A stretch of DNA of 64,000 nucleotides, taken from assembly GCF_014174165.1 (NCBI RefSeq), contig NZ_JABEQN010000017.1, positions 1 to 64,000 of the forward strand, written 5' to 3'. Positions 17,854-26,121 of this stretch are shown piece after piece. How positions within the stretch are numbered: the stretch's first letter is position 1; every line of letters starts with the position of its first letter. Below the pieces are notes generated by a model. That model was not told the DNA's origin and did not search any database. It saw only the letters and a program-made list of their open reading frames with translations. The translations under genes were made by a program, and so were the position numbers. Source of the stretch: Gluconacetobacter dulcium. Its GTDB lineage: Bacteria > Pseudomonadota > Alphaproteobacteria > Acetobacterales > Acetobacteraceae.

Positions 17854-20352
17854 ATGTTACGCCTGCGTCATCATATTCTCGGCGGCGTGTCGTCGCTGGT
17901 CATCGCACTGCCCGTCGTGACATCTAGCCTGTCGCTTCCGGTCCCGGCCCTTGCCGCGGCGACGGAGCCGGCTTTGCTTTCCATGAAAACGGACGCGAAA
18001 TCCGGAAAAATCTTTGTCACACTGCCCTCGCCGGACGAAAACGGCGTGTATGGGCGGTATTTATATGCGTCCGCCCTGCGCACCGGCGTCGGATCGGCCC
18101 GTATCCGGCTTGACCATGGAATGCTCGGTCCGACACGGGTCCTCGCATTCCGCAAGATCGGGAACAAGGTCGCAGTCATATTCGAAAACCCGAAATTCAC
18201 GTCCCGCGGCGACAAGGATATCCGCGAAGGTGTCGAACGCAGCTTCCCGTTCAGCGTAATCTGCATGCTCGACATGATCTCAACCGGTCCCGGCGGAACG
18301 GTCACCGCCGACCTGACGCCGTTTTTTCTTCATGATACGATGGATATCGCGACCAGCCTGAATGGCGGCGGCCTGAAACTGCCCGATGTTCTGGACAGCG
18401 GGGCCAAGGGTTTCCATCAGCTTCCGTCCCTGGGCGGCGTCGATCTCTCCAGCCTCAAATCATTCCCCGAGAATATCGAGGTCGAAGCGGTCCAGACCTT
18501 CGCGTCCGAAACGCCCGGCCCTGAAATGTCGCTCCTCTCGCCCGATCCCGGGCAGGTGAGTTTCACGGTCCATCACTCTCTCGTGAAACTTCCGGATGCC
18601 GGCTTCGTGCCACGGAAGTTCGATATCCGCTCCGGCTCGCATGCCAGCCCGGTCTATGATTTCGGGGCGCCGCTGGGCGAGGATGTACTCCTCCAATACG
18701 CCAACCGTTTTCGCCTGGTAAAAATCGACCCCACGGCCGCGAAATCGCGCGTCGTCAAGCCGATCGTGTTCTATATCGACAATGCGGCGCCCGAGCCCGT
18801 CCGTTCCGCGCTTGCCGAAGGCGTGTCCTGGTGGAATCAGGCGTTCGAGGCCGCGGGCTTCATCGACGCCTTCCAGGTCAGGATCCTGCCGCCCGGCGTC
18901 GATCCGCAGGATATCCGCTACAATATCGTCAACTGGAACGAACGGCAGACTCGCAGCTATTCATACGGCATGGGCGTCATCGATCCACGCACGGGTGAAA
19001 TCATCCGCGGAAACGTCGTCCTCGAAGGTCTGCGTCTACGGCAGGATCTCATGATTTTCGAGGCCCTGGCCGGCACGGCTGCCGAGAATAGCGGGGGCGC
19101 CAACGATGCGGTCAGGGTCTCGCTTGCCCGCATCAGACAGTTGGGTGTCCACGAAGTCGGCCATGCGATCGGCCTGATCCATAATTTCATGGGCAGCACG
19201 CAGGACCGGACCTCGGTGATGGATTATCCAGGGCCGCGCATCGGTATCAAGGACGGCAAGATCGACCTCTCCGACGCCTATGCCACCGGTGTCGGGGCAT
19301 GGGACAAATATATGATCGACTGGCTCTATGGCGATCCGGCCCCCGGAAAGGATCCCGATGTCGCCGCCGCGCAAAAGGCGGATGCCATCGAAAAGGCGGG
19401 CTTTCGCTTCGGCACCGACATCGACGGGCGCGATCCCGATACGGGCCTGCCCGGAAACAGCATGTGGACGGATGGAGCCGACAAGCCCGCGGACCTGAAA
19501 CATATGCTCGACGTCCGCCAGATCGCTCTTTCGAATTTCGGACCAGGCACGTTGCGCAAGGGCGAGGCACTGTCCGACCTTCGCAGGAAATTCGTGCCGC
19601 TGTGGCTTCTGCATCGCTACAATATCGAAGCGACGGCCAAGATCATCGGTGGCGTGGATTTTCGGTATGCCGTGGTCGGCGGCGTCAGCGCGAAGCCGGT
19701 GCCAGCAGATGCCGGCTTGCAGAAGGCCGCAATTGACGCGCTGCTCGACGCACTGTCACCGAAAGTGCTGGCGGTGTCACCGGCACTGGCGCTCGAACTC
19801 TCATTCGGGGTCAACGGCAACGAGGACCCTCAATATAATACTGAAATCTTCCGGACGGCCGGGTCAGCCGTCTTCGACCCGCTCAACGCCACCGACGTCG
19901 CGGCCCAGATCACACTCAATGCCCTGCTGGGGCCGAACCGGCTGGAGCGTGTCCATCTGCAGCACGGCCACGACCCTGCCCAACCGGGGCTCGATTACCT
20001 GCTCGACCGCATTGCGTCGCAGATTATCGCCAGACACAGCACCGAAGTCGAGCAGCGCATTGCCTACCGGACATTGGTGACGATGGCCAGCGTCCGCGAC
20101 AACCCCAAGGTCACGCCCGACGTCGCTCTCGCCTTGTCCGGGGCCCTCAAGACGGCTGCCGATCAGTTGGGAACGGTCCATGATACAGATGCGGATGCAT
20201 CATGGAGCCATCGGATGAGCGCGCTCCTGAAAGACCAGCCGCGTCTGGCCAGGGAGGCCGCGAAAGCCACCCGACCGGCTCCAACCATTCCCCCCGGAAC
20301 GCCGATCGGCGGAGGAGAGGATGACTGGCTGACGGAAGAACAACCCTTCTGA
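17854..20352 (+). CDS. Exported zinc-dependent metalloprotease (DUF5117/DUF4953-type)
   Basis: An 832-residue exported protein. The signal peptide ends near PVPALAAATEP. The extended zinc motif HEVGHAIGLIHNF places H433, E434, H437 and H443, followed by a Met-turn-like SVMDYPGPRIG, as in metzincins. The N-terminal part carries a YLYASALRTGVGSARIRLD block typical of these large zinc-dependent metalloproteases. It is the last gene of the rightward cluster, 143 bp after the M20 peptidase. It is expected to digest proteins or peptides in the periplasm or outside the cell. Confidence 0.85.
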   Translation: MLRLRHHILGGVSSLVIALPVVTSSLSLPVPALAAATEPALLSMKTDAKSGKIFVTLPSPDENGVYGRYLYASALRTGVGSARIRLDHGMLGPTRVLAFRKIGNKVAVIFENPKFTSRGDKDIREGVERSFPFSVICMLDMISTGPGGTVTADLTPFFLHDTMDIATSLNGGGLKLPDVLDSGAKGFHQLPSLGGVDLSSLKSFPENIEVEAVQTFASETPGPEMSLLSPDPGQVSFTVHHSLVKLPDAGFVPRKFDIRSGSHASPVYDFGAPLGEDVLLQYANRFRLVKIDPTAAKSRVVKPIVFYIDNAAPEPVRSALAEGVSWWNQAFEAAGFIDAFQVRILPPGVDPQDIRYNIVNWNERQTRSYSYGMGVIDPRTGEIIRGNVVLEGLRLRQDLMIFEALAGTAAENSGGANDAVRVSLARIRQLGVHEVGHAIGLIHNFMGSTQDRTSVMDYPGPRIGIKDGKIDLSDAYATGVGAWDKYMIDWLYGDPAPGKDPDVAAAQKADAIEKAGFRFGTDIDGRDPDTGLPGNSMWTDGADKPADLKHMLDVRQIALSNFGPGTLRKGEALSDLRRKFVPLWLLHRYNIEATAKIIGGVDFRYAVVGGVSAKPVPADAGLQKAAIDALLDALSPKVLAVSPALALELSFGVNGNEDPQYNTEIFRTAGSAVFDPLNATDVAAQITLNALLGPNRLERVHLQHGHDPAQPGLDYLLDRIASQIIARHSTEVEQRIAYRTLVTMASVRDNPKVTPDVALALSGALKTAADQLGTVHDTDADASWSHRMSALLKDQPRLAREAAKATRPAPTIPPGTPIGGGEDDWLTEEQPF

Positions 20353-20639: not shown

Positions 20640-22394
20640 TCACTGAACCCAAACCTGCGAGAAGATCATGTGATAGAGGTCCGAATAGAAATAATTCCCC
20701 AGCCGCGACGATACCAGATCAATATAATTGATGCGAATGGCCGGTGCGGCCGGAGAATCCCGGGCGATGATCCGCCCCGCCTGCGCCCACAGTTCCGCCG
20801 CCCGTGCCGGATCGGTTTCCTGCTTGGCCGCGTCCATCGCCGCCTGGGCGTCCTTGTCGCAATAGCCCGCGATGTTGATCGAATTGTCGGTGCCGGGATG
20901 GAAATTCTCGCAGCCGAACAGATCGTCCAGAAAATTCGAGGCCCAGGGATAATCGGCAAACCAGTCCGTCAGGCTGATCTGCACATGGTTCGATGTATTC
21001 TGGATGTATCCAAGCTGCACCGCATGGGCCAGAGGCTTGACGCTGGCGTCGTAGCCGATGGCCTGGAGCATGTTGCGCAGCCACACCCCCATGCTCATCT
21101 CGACATTGGTGTTCTGCACCACCACCGTCACTTTCTGCCCGGCGGTGCCGCTGGCCGCCACCAGCCGGCGTGCGCCCTCCAGATCCGGCCCCTGCCAGGA
21201 GGGCGCCGGATGGTCCAGGTCCGCCCCCTTCGTATAGGCGCATTCATCCAGCGCGCCGGGGATGCCGGGCGGCACCATGGTGCAGAGCGGCCCGGCGACG
21301 GCGCTGCCGCCATACAGGATGGTCATCGCCCGCCGGTCCAGCGCCCGGTTCACCGCCTGACGGGCCAGACGGTTGTTGAAGGGCGGAAGATTGACGTTCA
21401 TCGGCACGTAATAGATGCCGTAGAGCGCGCGGATATGCACCTGCCGGGTATGGCGCGCGCCCAGTTCGCCCAGCCGGTCCAGCGGCTTCATGTCGAACAT
21501 CCAGTCATACTGGCCGTTTTCCACCGCCGTCACCGCCGCTTCGTCCGGCAGGCCGAAATCGTAGTGGATATGATCGACATAGCCATCGGGCTGCGCCTCG
21601 GCGCTCCACACATGGAAGAACGGATTGCGCTCCAGCACCGCCCCCCGGTCCGGATCGTAGCTGACGAACCGGTACGGCCCCGTGGTCGGTGCCGGCACAT
21701 TGCCCAGATCATGGTCCGGCATGTTCGCCGGCAGGATCGAGGCATGCGGAAAAGCCAGTTTCTGCGGAAACTCGGCGTCCGGCTGCTTCAGGTGAAAGAC
21801 CACTTCCCGCGTGGCCGGATCGACCTCCAGCCCACCCGCCAGCGTGCAATGCGCGGGGTCGCGCAGGCACAGATCCGCCCCGACGATGGCACCGTAGAAC
21901 GCCCCCGCCGTCGGGCTGCCGACCCGGAACAGACGCCGGATCGAGGCCGCGACATCCGCCACCGTGACCTCCTGCCCGGTGGAGAACCGCACCCCCTGCC
22001 GCAGGGTGAAACGCCAGGTCCGCCCGCCATCCTCGGGCTGCGGCACCGCCTCGGCCAGATCGGCCACCACCTCGTCACTGGTGCGATCGTCCGCCTTGCG
22101 GAAATTCAGCAGCCCGTCATACAGCACGGTGAAAAGCTGGGCATATTCCGAGGTATAATTCACCTGCGGGTCAAGTGTTCCGCCCGAGGATGACGCCGTG
22201 AGCCGCAAGGTTCCCCGACGATGCGGGCTACCCAGCGTCTGCCCGTCTCCCACCGGCCGGGCGCTGCCCGGCGGCGCGGAATCCTGCGCGCGGGCGGCTG
22301 GCATACCCGCCAGCACCGCCAGCATGCCGACGAACAGAAAAGGCAGGCTCACAGCCTGTCTGCAAACGCGCGTCGGATCGCCGCCAGAGCGCAT
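20640..22394 (-). CDS. Family-5 peptide-type ABC transporter substrate-binding protein
   Basis: A 584-residue periplasmic solute-binding protein with an N-terminal signal peptide (hydrophobic core LPFLFVGMLAVLAG, cleavage after ARA). It shows SBP_bac_5 features: TLDPQVNYTSEYAQLFTVLYDGLL, then WRFTLRQGVRFSTGQEVTVADV. ATG 22394 is preferred; a GTG directly after the SCO stop (22427) is possible. It follows polA and the SCO gene on the same strand. It is the most plausible partner of the importer genes at 4030-8021, which lack their own binding protein. Confidence 0.88.
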   Translation of the reverse strand: MRSGGDPTRVCRQAVSLPFLFVGMLAVLAGMPAARAQDSAPPGSARPVGDGQTLGSPHRRGTLRLTASSSGGTLDPQVNYTSEYAQLFTVLYDGLLNFRKADDRTSDEVVADLAEAVPQPEDGGRTWRFTLRQGVRFSTGQEVTVADVAASIRRLFRVGSPTAGAFYGAIVGADLCLRDPAHCTLAGGLEVDPATREVVFHLKQPDAEFPQKLAFPHASILPANMPDHDLGNVPAPTTGPYRFVSYDPDRGAVLERNPFFHVWSAEAQPDGYVDHIHYDFGLPDEAAVTAVENGQYDWMFDMKPLDRLGELGARHTRQVHIRALYGIYYVPMNVNLPPFNNRLARQAVNRALDRRAMTILYGGSAVAGPLCTMVPPGIPGALDECAYTKGADLDHPAPSWQGPDLEGARRLVAASGTAGQKVTVVVQNTNVEMSMGVWLRNMLQAIGYDASVKPLAHAVQLGYIQNTSNHVQISLTDWFADYPWASNFLDDLFGCENFHPGTDNSINIAGYCDKDAQAAMDAAKQETDPARAAELWAQAGRIIARDSPAAPAIRINYIDLVSSRLGNYFYSDLYHMIFSQVWVQ

Positions 22395-22427
22395 GTCCGG
22401 ACAGGCTCCGAACCGTCGCCCCCGCAC

Positions 22428-23039
22428 CTATTGCGCCGCCATCAGGCTGTTCAGACGGTCCGCGATATCCTGTGCCGAAGCATCGGACTGGATCGTGCCG
22501 GCATAGCGCCCTTCGGGCGACATGATGACGATACGCGGTGACGGTTCCATGCTGTAATCGCCATCCTTGCCCTCATGACGCACGTAGGGCGCATGATATT
22601 CGGCGGTCACGGCCTTGAGCATGGTCGGCGCGCCGGTCATGGCGAAGATGCGCGGCCCGAAGCGCAGCGTATAGGCGCGCATCGCCTCGGCCGTGTCGCG
22701 CATCGGGTCCACCGAGATGAACAGCGGCGCCACGGACCGATGTTTCGGCCCCAGCAGGTCCATCGCCCCGGCCATCGCCCGCAGCGTCGCGCCGCATTGC
22801 TCGTCGGGGCAGTGCGTGTAGCCGAAATAGACCAGCATCCAGCGGCCCCGGAAATTGCTGTCCGACACCTCGCCCTCGGCCGCGCTGACCAGCCGGAACG
22901 ACCCGCCGATCTCGTTGCCGTGGGTGGAAAGCAGCGGGCCGGCGCGATCCATCGCCCAGTAGCCCGCATAGCCCCCCACCGCCGAAAGCACGGCAATGAC
23001 CGCCCCGATCGCCAGCCGGCGCTTGTCCCGTTTCTGCAT
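22428..23039 (-). CDS. SCO1/SenC-like membrane-anchored thioredoxin-fold protein with altered copper site
   Basis: A 203-residue protein with an N-terminal membrane anchor (LAIGAVIAVLSAVGGYAGYW) and a SCO thioredoxin-like domain (SFRLVSAAEGEVSDSNFRGRWMLVYFGYTHC). SCO proteins deliver copper to cytochrome c oxidase with a CxxxC motif and a distant His. Here the cysteines are in CPDEQC, spaced CxxxxC, and the usual His position reads SMEPSPRIVI with no His. Its ATG overlaps the polA stop as TGATG, so translation is coupled. The altered ligands suggest a redox or chaperone role rather than standard Cu(A) insertion. Confidence 0.82.
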   Translation of the reverse strand: MQKRDKRRLAIGAVIAVLSAVGGYAGYWAMDRAGPLLSTHGNEIGGSFRLVSAAEGEVSDSNFRGRWMLVYFGYTHCPDEQCGATLRAMAGAMDLLGPKHRSVAPLFISVDPMRDTAEAMRAYTLRFGPRIFAMTGAPTMLKAVTAEYHAPYVRHEGKDGDYSMEPSPRIVIMSPEGRYAGTIQSDASAQDIADRLNSLMAAQ

Positions 23040-25879
23040 CAATGTGCGTCCGCCCAGTTCGTTCCGGTCCCGGTTTCCACCACCAGCTTCACCGAAAGGT
23101 CGGCGGCGGATTCCATGACCTGTTTCACGAGTCCCGACAGATCGCCCTCCTGGCCCTGCCGTACCTCGAACACAAGTTCGTCATGGACCTGAAGCAGCAG
23201 CCGTCCGTCAAGCCCGGCATCGGCCAGCACACGCGGCAGGCGCACCATCGCGCGCTTGATGATGTCGGCCGCCCCGCCCTGCAACGGCGCGTTGATCGCC
23301 TGCCGCTCGGCATAGGACCGGCGGGCCGCGTTGCGGTCGCCGATGCCCGGCACCCAGCACCGCCGCCCGAACGGGGTGGTGACGTAGCCGTTCGCCTTCG
23401 CCTCTTCCTTCATCCGGTCCATATAGTCGCGGATCTCGGGATAGCGGGCGAAATAGGCGTCGATATACGATCGCGCCTCGCCCGGCGGAATGCCGAGCTG
23501 CCGCCCCAGCCCGAAGGCGCTGATGCCGTAGATGATGCCGAAATTGATCGCCTTGGCCCGCCGCCGCGTCAGCGGGTCCATCCCTTCGATCGGCACGCCG
23601 AAGACCTCGGACGCCGTGCGGGCATGGATATCCTGCCCCAGCGCGAAAGCCTCGCGCAGGGCTGGAATGTTCGCCACATGGGCCAGCAGCCGCAATTCGA
23701 TCTGCGAATAATCCGCCGACAGCAGCACATGGCCCGGCGCCGCGACAAAAGCGCGGCGAATGCGCCCGCCCTCCTCGGTGCGGATGGGAATGTTCTGCAA
23801 ATTCGGCTCGTTGGACGACAGGCGACCGGTCGAGGTAATCGCCATCTGGAACGAGGTATGCACCCGCTCCGTCCCCGGATCGGCCTGGCTCACCAGCGCA
23901 TCGGCATAGGTCGATTTCAGCTTGGCCAGTTGCCGCCAGGCGAGAATGCGCGCCGGCAGGTCATGCCCCTGGTCGGCCAGATCCTGCAACACCGACGAAT
24001 CGGTCCCCCAGGCGCCCGATTTCATCCGCTTGCCGCCGGCCAGACCCATTTCGTCGAACAGGATCTCGCCCAACTGCTTGGGCGAGCCGACATTGAACGA
24101 CCGGCCGGCCAGACGATGGATCTCCACTTCCATCTCGCCCATGCGCGCCGCGAAATCGGCCGACAGACGCCGCAGTTCGGTCACGTCCACCGCAATGCCG
24201 GCCCGTTCCATGTCGGCCAGCACAGCCACCAGAGGCCGTTCCAGCTCCTCATACAGCGCCAGCGCCCGGTTGGGCCGCAGGGTCGGATGCAGCGACAGCC
24301 ACAGCCGCAGCGTCACATCCGTATCCTCGGCCGCATATGCGGTCGCCCGCGCCACATCGACCCGCGCAAACGGCACACGGTTGCGCCCGGTACCCGTCAC
24401 CTCGTCATAGGAAATCGGCGTATGGCCCAGATACAGCCGCGACAATTCGTCCATGCCCTGCCCATGCCGTCCGGCATACTGGGCATAGGAAATCAGCATG
24501 GTGTCGTCGATCGGCGTCGGCTGCGGCGCGCCGGCACGGGTCAGTACCAGCAGGTCGAACTTGGCATTCTGGAAAATCTTCAGCACCGATGGGTCGATGA
24601 ACAGCGGACCCAGACTGTCCAGCGCGGCGGCAACCGGCATCTGAACGCCGACGGGGTCTTCTTCCACCCCCTCCTCGGGCAGAAGCTGCGCCTGCGCCGG
24701 CGCGCCCTCATGGGCCAGCGGAATGTAGCAGGAGCGCCCCGGCGCCACCGCCAGCGAGATCCCGACCAGCCCGGCATGCAAGGGGTCCAGCCCGTCGGTC
24801 TCGGTATCGACGGCGCAGAACCCGACCCGGCGCGCCTCCGCCACCCAGGCGTCCAGCGCCTCGGCGGTGCGTACGGTCTCATAAGGCCCAAACGGCGCCC
24901 GATCGGGTGCGGCAGGCGCCGCGCCCGGCGCGACCTCCGCACCGGCCTCCGCACCGGCGCGCGCCACGGCCGGGGCCGCCGCGTGACTGGCGACACCAAC
25001 CGCCGCCGCCGTCTGCTTCAGCCCCATCCGATGCACCAGCGAGCGGAAACCCATCCGGCCCAGCCACGCGCCCAGTTCCGCCTCATCGGGCTCGCGGCAG
25101 ACCAGTTCCTCCAGCGGCACCGGGCACGGCGCGTCCTCGCGCAACGTCACCAGTTCCCGCGACAGGCGCGCGCGCTCGGCATGTTCGATCAGATTATCGC
25201 GCCGTTTCGAAGCCTTCATCGCGGGCGCGGCCGCCAGGATCGCATCCAGCGACCCATATTCCGCAATCAGCGCCGAGGCGGTCTTGGGTCCGATCCCCGG
25301 CACGCCCGGCACGTTATCGACCGAATCGCCGATCAGCGCCTGCACGTCGATCACCTTGTCGGGCGTCACGCCGAATTTCGCCTCGACCTCGGCCGGCCCG
25401 ATCGGCTTCTGGCGGATCGGGTCCTGCATCTCCACACCCGGACGGATAAGCTGCATCAGGTCCTTGTCGGACGAAACGATGGTGCAGCGCCCCCCCGCAT
25501 CGGTCACACGGCGGGCATAGGCCGCGATCAGATCGTCAGCCTCCCACCCCGCTTCCTCGATCCCCGGCACACCGAAGGCCGAGGTCGCGTCCCGCACCAG
25601 GGCGAATTGCGGCCGCAGATCCTCCGGCGGCTCCGGCCGATGGGCTTTGTACTGGTCATAAAGTTCGTTGCGAAACGTCAACCGGCCCGCATCGAAAATG
25701 ACGGCGAGATGCGTGCCCACATGGTCGCGCAGCAGCCGCGCCAGCATGTTGGTGAAGCCGAACACGGCGTTGACCGGCGTGCCATCGGGCGCGGTCATCG
25801 GCGGCAGGGCATGGAAGGCACGGAAGATGAACCCCGATCCGTCAACGAGGATCAGGTGAATCGGGGCGTCGCTGGACAT
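23039..25879 (-). CDS. polA: DNA polymerase I
   Basis: A 946-residue DNA polymerase I for Okazaki-fragment processing and repair. The N-terminal 5'-3' exonuclease region (about 1-290) has ILVDGSGFIFRAFHALPP. The 3'-5' exonuclease domain keeps its acidic motif in CAVDTETDGLDPL, so proofreading is probably active. The C-terminal polymerase carries SADYSQIELRLLAHVA and the palm motif QVHDELVFEV. ATG 25879 (MSSDAP) matches the family N-terminus. The upstream zinc-finger gene ends 12 bases earlier, so the two are likely co-transcribed. Confidence 0.96.
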   Translation of the reverse strand: MSSDAPIHLILVDGSGFIFRAFHALPPMTAPDGTPVNAVFGFTNMLARLLRDHVGTHLAVIFDAGRLTFRNELYDQYKAHRPEPPEDLRPQFALVRDATSAFGVPGIEEAGWEADDLIAAYARRVTDAGGRCTIVSSDKDLMQLIRPGVEMQDPIRQKPIGPAEVEAKFGVTPDKVIDVQALIGDSVDNVPGVPGIGPKTASALIAEYGSLDAILAAAPAMKASKRRDNLIEHAERARLSRELVTLREDAPCPVPLEELVCREPDEAELGAWLGRMGFRSLVHRMGLKQTAAAVGVASHAAAPAVARAGAEAGAEVAPGAAPAAPDRAPFGPYETVRTAEALDAWVAEARRVGFCAVDTETDGLDPLHAGLVGISLAVAPGRSCYIPLAHEGAPAQAQLLPEEGVEEDPVGVQMPVAAALDSLGPLFIDPSVLKIFQNAKFDLLVLTRAGAPQPTPIDDTMLISYAQYAGRHGQGMDELSRLYLGHTPISYDEVTGTGRNRVPFARVDVARATAYAAEDTDVTLRLWLSLHPTLRPNRALALYEELERPLVAVLADMERAGIAVDVTELRRLSADFAARMGEMEVEIHRLAGRSFNVGSPKQLGEILFDEMGLAGGKRMKSGAWGTDSSVLQDLADQGHDLPARILAWRQLAKLKSTYADALVSQADPGTERVHTSFQMAITSTGRLSSNEPNLQNIPIRTEEGGRIRRAFVAAPGHVLLSADYSQIELRLLAHVANIPALREAFALGQDIHARTASEVFGVPIEGMDPLTRRRAKAINFGIIYGISAFGLGRQLGIPPGEARSYIDAYFARYPEIRDYMDRMKEEAKANGYVTTPFGRRCWVPGIGDRNAARRSYAERQAINAPLQGGAADIIKRAMVRLPRVLADAGLDGRLLLQVHDELVFEVRQGQEGDLSGLVKQVMESAADLSVKLVVETGTGTNWADAH

Positions 25880-25890
25880 GCTGGGTCGGA

Positions 25891-26121
25891 TCAGTGCGCG
25901 CTGTCTTCCCCGGCATCGGGGCTCAATACGAACAGGCGCGAGCAATAGGGGCAGAAGGTCTGGTGCCCGGCAATGCGCAGCCACACGCGCGGATGCCCCA
26001 GCGCCCCCAGCCCGCCGTCACAGGACAGCACGCGCGACTGCACGATCACCGTCTCGACATGGCCGAGGCGCGGATGGGGGACCGGATCGCCGGATTGGGC
26101 CGGAAGGGTCTGGACCTGCAT
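25891..26121 (-). CDS. Zinc-finger domain protein (zf-CHCC type)
   Basis: A 76-residue protein of the zf-CHCC family, related to the NDUFS6-like subunit region of complex I. The ligands appear in VLSCDGGLGALGHPRVWL and TFCPYCSRLFVL (pattern Cys, His, CxxC). Length is normal for the bacterial family. It directly precedes polA on the same strand. Confidence 0.85.
   Translation of the reverse strand: MQVQTLPAQSGDPVPHPRLGHVETVIVQSRVLSCDGGLGALGHPRVWLRIAGHQTFCPYCSRLFVLSPDAGEDSAH

Follow-up and report, generated by a model that had tools for sequence, protein, structure and literature searches.

The polA-sco locus

The window, meaning the whole 64,000-nucleotide stretch of DNA analysed here, carries on its minus strand an ORF whose 203 aa translation matches the Pfam family SCO1-SenC (22428..23039; E 5e-37). 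The gene starts with an ATG at 23039 and stops at 22428-22430; the mechanically called ORF begins with a TTG at 23042, three bases ahead of this ATG. Its upstream neighbour is polA, encoding DNA polymerase I (23039..25984, minus strand; Pfam DNA_pol_A, 3.8e-151), and the two genes overlap by one base, the TGA of polA and the ATG of sco being joined as TGATG. At the other loci compared, the junction was an overlap or a short gap. As stated in the original prediction, the gene is uninterrupted and directly adjoins polA; the one-base overlap suggests translational coupling. Downstream follows a gene for a family 5 solute-binding protein (20640..22427, minus strand; Pfam SBP_bac_5, 2.8e-59), which recurs at many, but not all, loci of the clade described below. 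A large Met-zincin-like protein (DUF4953, DUF5117) is encoded on the opposite strand, close to the end of the solute-binding gene (17854-20352, plus strand).

Residues 3-32 (22944..23033, minus strand) form a helix in the predicted structure and a hydrophobic stretch in the sequence, and likely serve as a membrane anchor. The cysteine motif C77-P-D-E-Q-C82 (22794..22811, minus strand) reads FGYTHCPDEQCGATL, with four residues between C77 and C82 (C-x4-C).

The nearest named record, from G. liquefaciens, shares 99% protein identity with the window protein. Three SCO domains are encoded in the window's own genome and the copper site is missing in the window copy only: the second SCO has CPDVC and the His and lies behind oxidase genes with a CuA motif, and the third has CIDIC and the His. 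The CIDIC gene (L153:9519-13918, G000:C22) is found near genes that we read as encoding a TonB-type receptor-like protein and a PepSY-like protein containing the Met-rich stretch GMGGMADMPGMEMGGG. This locus is perhaps a copper uptake cluster.

A SCO domain without the copper ligands

The SCO1-SenC match scored 127.3 bits against a curated cut-off of 22.8. The AhpC-TSA match of the window protein remained below its cut-off, and an NCBIfam search with this protein gave no match. A structure was predicted from an alignment of 61 rows, 12 of them from the clade (pLDDT 86.7). In a fold search, the model matched the Arabidopsis SCO structure 6n5u_A with Z 24.2 (rmsd 1.9, 160 residues), followed by ResA (Z 14.8) and by peroxiredoxins including AhpC and BCP (near Z 14). 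By sequence and predicted fold, the window protein is a member of the SCO domain family, which agrees with its first description as SCO-like.

SCO copper chaperones are defined by a CxxxC motif and a distal copper His. The window protein has CPDEQC in place of CxxxC, and an HMMER alignment to solved SCO proteins revealed a one-residue insertion relative to CPDxC and P166 (22542..22544, minus strand) opposite the copper His. As judged from these residues, the protein lacks both features of a SCO copper chaperone; the unusual CxxxxC and the absent His had both been predicted. The DxxxD motif is present (D111 and D115), and some clade members have lost it.

Proteins of the ResA/TlpA type carry CxxC, where the window protein has C-x4-C. 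The domain of a canonical SCO from Lichenicoccus (L047) reached Z 25.3 to SCO structures and 15.3 to ResA, so that the fold search showed no shift of the window protein (ResA Z 14.8) towards thioredoxins. The idea of a thioredoxin-type protein rests on the motif. P168 (22536..22538, minus strand) directly precedes strand 169-173 in the model, and we assigned it by position to the thioredoxin cis-Pro slot. According to the accessible part of one paper, that strand begins with the cis-Pro, which may keep metals from binding (PMC2757866). A proline in this slot may thus exclude metal from the window protein.

Distribution of the clade

A first set of 60 relatives, 249 family genomes and 62 named loci plus further stretches yielded 124 distinct SCO sequences, which were aligned. 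Because the C-x4-C motif was itself the sorting criterion for the rows, the cysteine counts follow by construction: 46 of the 124 had C-x4-C and the other 78 had CxxxC. The copper His was present in all 78 CxxxC sequences and in none of the 46, which had P (41), M (4) or T (1). In the column of H149 (22593..22595, minus strand; part of a Y-H-A-P motif), the other SCOs mostly had Arg. On an unrooted tree calculated without the trait columns, a single branch (SH-aLRT 100) separated the 46 sequences from the others; this tree and the one with the Cys-less members described below were quick searches with long-branch warnings, the Cys-less rows included. The clade protein also occurs in 12 named records (10 from Gluconacetobacter and 2 from Komagataeibacter; these overlap with the genome set below). 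In a sample of the phylum, 303 of 398 genomes had a match. Among 30 loci from these 303, the four within the family belonged to the clade and the 26 outside had CxxxC and the His.

We then used a profile of 22 members, all with C-x4-C (A3), against 397 family genomes, and clade membership was assigned by profile score at a gap between 1.1e-55 and 5.8e-45. The clade protein was found in 96 of the 397 genomes, the window's own included, spanning 17 genus codes by our count. Exact C-x4-C was kept in 92 of the 96, which answers whether relatives retain the spacing, and the copper His in none. The altered copper site is hence a trait of the whole clade. A sequencing error or one-strain mutation was rejected on the same distribution; relatives from the clade likewise lack CxxxC, and no sequencing correction to this motif emerged. 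In the alignment, the column of the copper His contains no His in any of the 96; another histidine, H149, is shared by 94 of them, Cys-less members included. In some members, L018 and L106-L110 among them, a His lies two residues before the old site; a shift of the His within the loop was rejected as not general. In the aligned sequences, the copper ligands are lost, and the window protein likely binds no copper. The cis-Pro slot, two residues past the old His site, holds Pro in 69 of 96 genomes and other residues in 27. polA adjoins the clade gene in 94 of 96; the exceptions, in the stretch examined, are G720 and G077.

In smaller sets both cysteines had appeared invariant (46/46 and 22/22), which was rejected when weaker members without cysteines were found. 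Both are lost in four of the 96 genomes (L282, L283, L284 and L365, from G166, G214, G090 and G804). These four belong to one genus code, in which nine others keep both cysteines, form one branch in the tree and retain the Y-H-A-P motif.

C-x4-C is also the cysteine spacing of the peroxiredoxins PrxQ and BCP, which carry the motif PxxxTxxC. A PrxQ-like peroxidase would use the pair as peroxidatic and resolving cysteines, and it would fit this reading that C82 lies inside a helix beginning at residue 79 of the model and that the fold search also retrieved AhpC and BCP (near Z 14). However, PxxxTxxC is missing from the window sequence and SCO structures are a far better match (Z 24.2). Moreover, the Arg that peroxiredoxins have in the cis-Pro slot, according to the part of the source available (PMC2757866), occurs in none of the 96 proteins, all of which have P, S, T, D, N or Q there. 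We consider a peroxidase very improbable.

Origin of the altered site

Canonical SCO genes, with CxxxC and His, adjoin polA in four further loci (L047 from Lichenicoccus, L059, L064 and L370; judging by length and place, L369 is the same contig as L064). The solute-binding gene also follows in L047, L059 and L064. In L367, L368 and L371, the SCO is canonical and polA is absent from the stretch examined. A polymerase-SCO fusion, considered because L059 and L064 contain very long open frames, was rejected: polA ends with its own stop codon in both.

The occurrence of canonical SCOs next to polA in sister lineages suggests that the two genes were probably paired before the change and that the copper site was probably altered at this locus. 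In the unrooted tree of the first set, L047, L059 and L064 group with other canonical SCOs and not beside the clade, so that gene order is the basis for inferring a change in place. Replacement of the sco gene at the polA locus is the alternative.

Constraint on members with and without cysteines

Using our own Nei-Gojobori script and leaving out pairs with saturated dS, we obtained dN/dS values of 0.08-0.47 in nine Gluconacetobacter pairs. In two Cys-less pairs (G166 versus G214 and G090), dN/dS was 0.03, with dS of 0.41 and 0.38 and dN of 0.013. This value indicates that constraint on the gene persists even where the cysteines are gone.

Oxidases, copper handling and DsbD

Oxidase and SCO co-occurrence is given as raw genome counts, not corrected for kinship, and COX2 was counted with PF00116 alone (E 0.001). 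A COX2 match of any kind was found in 95 of the 96 clade genomes, with a best value of 2.1e-17; the exception is G698. In about 260 of the 301 other family genomes, by our own reading of the table, the match was at or below 1e-20. Taken with the CuA counts that follow, this contrast between the clade and the other family genomes indicates that absence of the standard subunit II goes along with the clade. Of the 45 clade genomes examined first, 19 had the CuA motif in a COX2 match and 26 did not, and none of eight further clade genomes had the motif. The CuA motif was thus missing from every COX2 match in 34 of 53 clade genomes. Three genomes (G167, G252, which by position is L059, and G673) keep a canonical polA-linked SCO with CxxxC and His, yet have no strong COX2 match.

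Among nine family genomes without an A3 match, four had no COX2 match and five had a quinol-type COX2 without the CuA motif. Small family genomes with neither a SCO nor a COX2 match are G066, G152, G102 and G106, and also G244, whose genus code g55 includes 12 other sampled members that carry the clade; G244 was absent from the SCO matches and had no COX2 match. G004 and G012 had three PF02630 matches each, two of them weak.

The SCO fold might bind a client, perhaps a quinol oxidase subunit, with copper and thiols dispensable and the cysteines accessory. Client binding is the main rival to thiol chemistry because of the Cys-less members, which are under strong constraint, and the link to oxidases: a COX2 match accompanies the clade protein in 95 of 96 genomes and is missing in four of the nine genomes without it, as it is in G244. 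The conservation of H149, also in the Cys-less proteins, and the existence of plant HCC2, described in the available text as a SCO lacking both Cys and His (PMC3971200), point the same way. This reading does not account for both cysteines being held at one spacing in 92 of 96 genomes; furthermore, five of the nine genomes have a quinol-type COX2 without the protein, and G698 has the protein with no COX2 match at E 0.001. We regard such a pseudo-chaperone as unlikely.

PCuAC was detected in 23 of 29 genomes, including 21 of the 26 CuA-less clade genomes, and 10 of these 26 also encode another SCO that has CxxxC and the His. These occurrences suggest that copper handling goes on in CuA-less genomes. 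They bear on the possibility that the clade protein is still a copper protein, in which C-x4-C, perhaps with H149, takes Cu(I) to, for example, CuB of a quinol oxidase. The cysteines kept in 92 of 96 genomes and the frequent PCuAC would agree with this, as would the role of SCO proteins in CuB synthesis in some bacteria, as given in the accessible part of a review (PMC9145763). Against it stand the loss of the copper His in all 96 genomes and of the cysteines in four, and the presence of further, canonical SCOs in 10 of the 26 CuA-less clade genomes and, twice, in the window's own genome. We judge a Cu(I) carrier to be quite unlikely.

DsbD_TM was found in 28 of 29 genomes. In G067 only (L277, G067:C20:23500-28500), polA-sco is immediately preceded by a dsbD-like gene of the same orientation; since many clade loci have little sequence above polA, we draw no conclusion from this arrangement. 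In six other loci (L084, L088, L091, L094, L131 and L136), a canonical SCO (CPDDC or CPDEC, with His) stands beside DsbD-like genes, which is a different SCO-thiol pairing.

Proposed function

We tentatively favour, at somewhat less than an even chance, a copper-free thiol-disulfide protein. Thiol chemistry is our first choice because 92 of 96 genomes retain both cysteines at the new spacing. The absence of the His from all 96, the slot Pro in 69 of 96, the grouping of the clade on one branch, the canonical SCOs beside polA in sister lineages, the dN/dS values in Gluconacetobacter, DsbD_TM in 28 of 29 genomes and the missing CuA motif in 34 of 53 also count for it. Against it count the four Cys-less members under constraint, the 27 of 96 proteins without the slot Pro, the PCuAC and second SCO genes of CuA-less genomes, the fold search without a shift towards thioredoxins, and the tree that does not join the clade to the polA-linked canonical SCOs. 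The product would be a membrane-anchored, periplasmic SCO-fold protein that arose when an ancestor of the acetic acid bacteria lost the copper site, in a single event, at a long-established polA-sco locus. It would no longer carry copper to CuA, and its cysteine pair would act on a client in the periplasm, probably a respiratory one, with DsbD as a possible source of reducing power. In the one small sub-lineage without cysteines, only a binding role could remain.

According to the accessible parts of two papers (PMC3971200, PMC9145763), there is debate over whether SCO proteins deliver copper, serve as thiol reductants, or combine the two roles. A broader claim would be that a chaperone was turned in place, group-wide, into a copper-free protein, in one lineage even without the active-site cysteines and under strong selection, so that the job of the fold needs neither metal nor thiol. 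We hold this to be possible but doubtful. If it were true, the SCO fold may serve to hold a client in the periplasm, such as a subunit of an oxidase, and copper transfer would so far have concealed this part of its function. The sister lineages with the full site at the same locus, the 92 members with re-spaced cysteines and no His, and the four without cysteines form a natural series in which a copper role, a thiol role and any third role could be told apart.

Comparison with known systems

In a literature search that covered mostly titles and the starts of abstracts, with most subscription journals outside it, we recognised no paper on this clade or on any C-x4-C SCO. The clade shares its cysteine spacing with PrxQ/BCP; it differs from them by the absence of the slot Arg and of PxxxTxxC, and their fold matches only near Z 14. 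With the SCO1/SenC chaperones (human SCO1, Bradyrhizobium ScoI, BsSco/YpmQ and PrrC), it has in common the Pfam domain, the fold, the N-terminal helix and DxxxD. In contrast to them, it has C-x4-C for CxxxC, no copper His, and polA instead of oxidase genes as neighbour. ResA and TlpA share the thioredoxin fold (ResA Z 14.8) and, by position, a Pro in the cis-Pro slot, but have CxxC, according to the part of the source available (PMC2757866), where the clade has C-x4-C, and the clade is overall much closer to SCO. Like the clade, Arabidopsis HCC2 lacks the copper His, and its authors place it outside metal transfer in the accessible text (PMC3971200). HCC2 has no cysteines, whereas the clade keeps a re-spaced pair in 92 of 96 genomes, and it is the remaining four that resemble HCC2.
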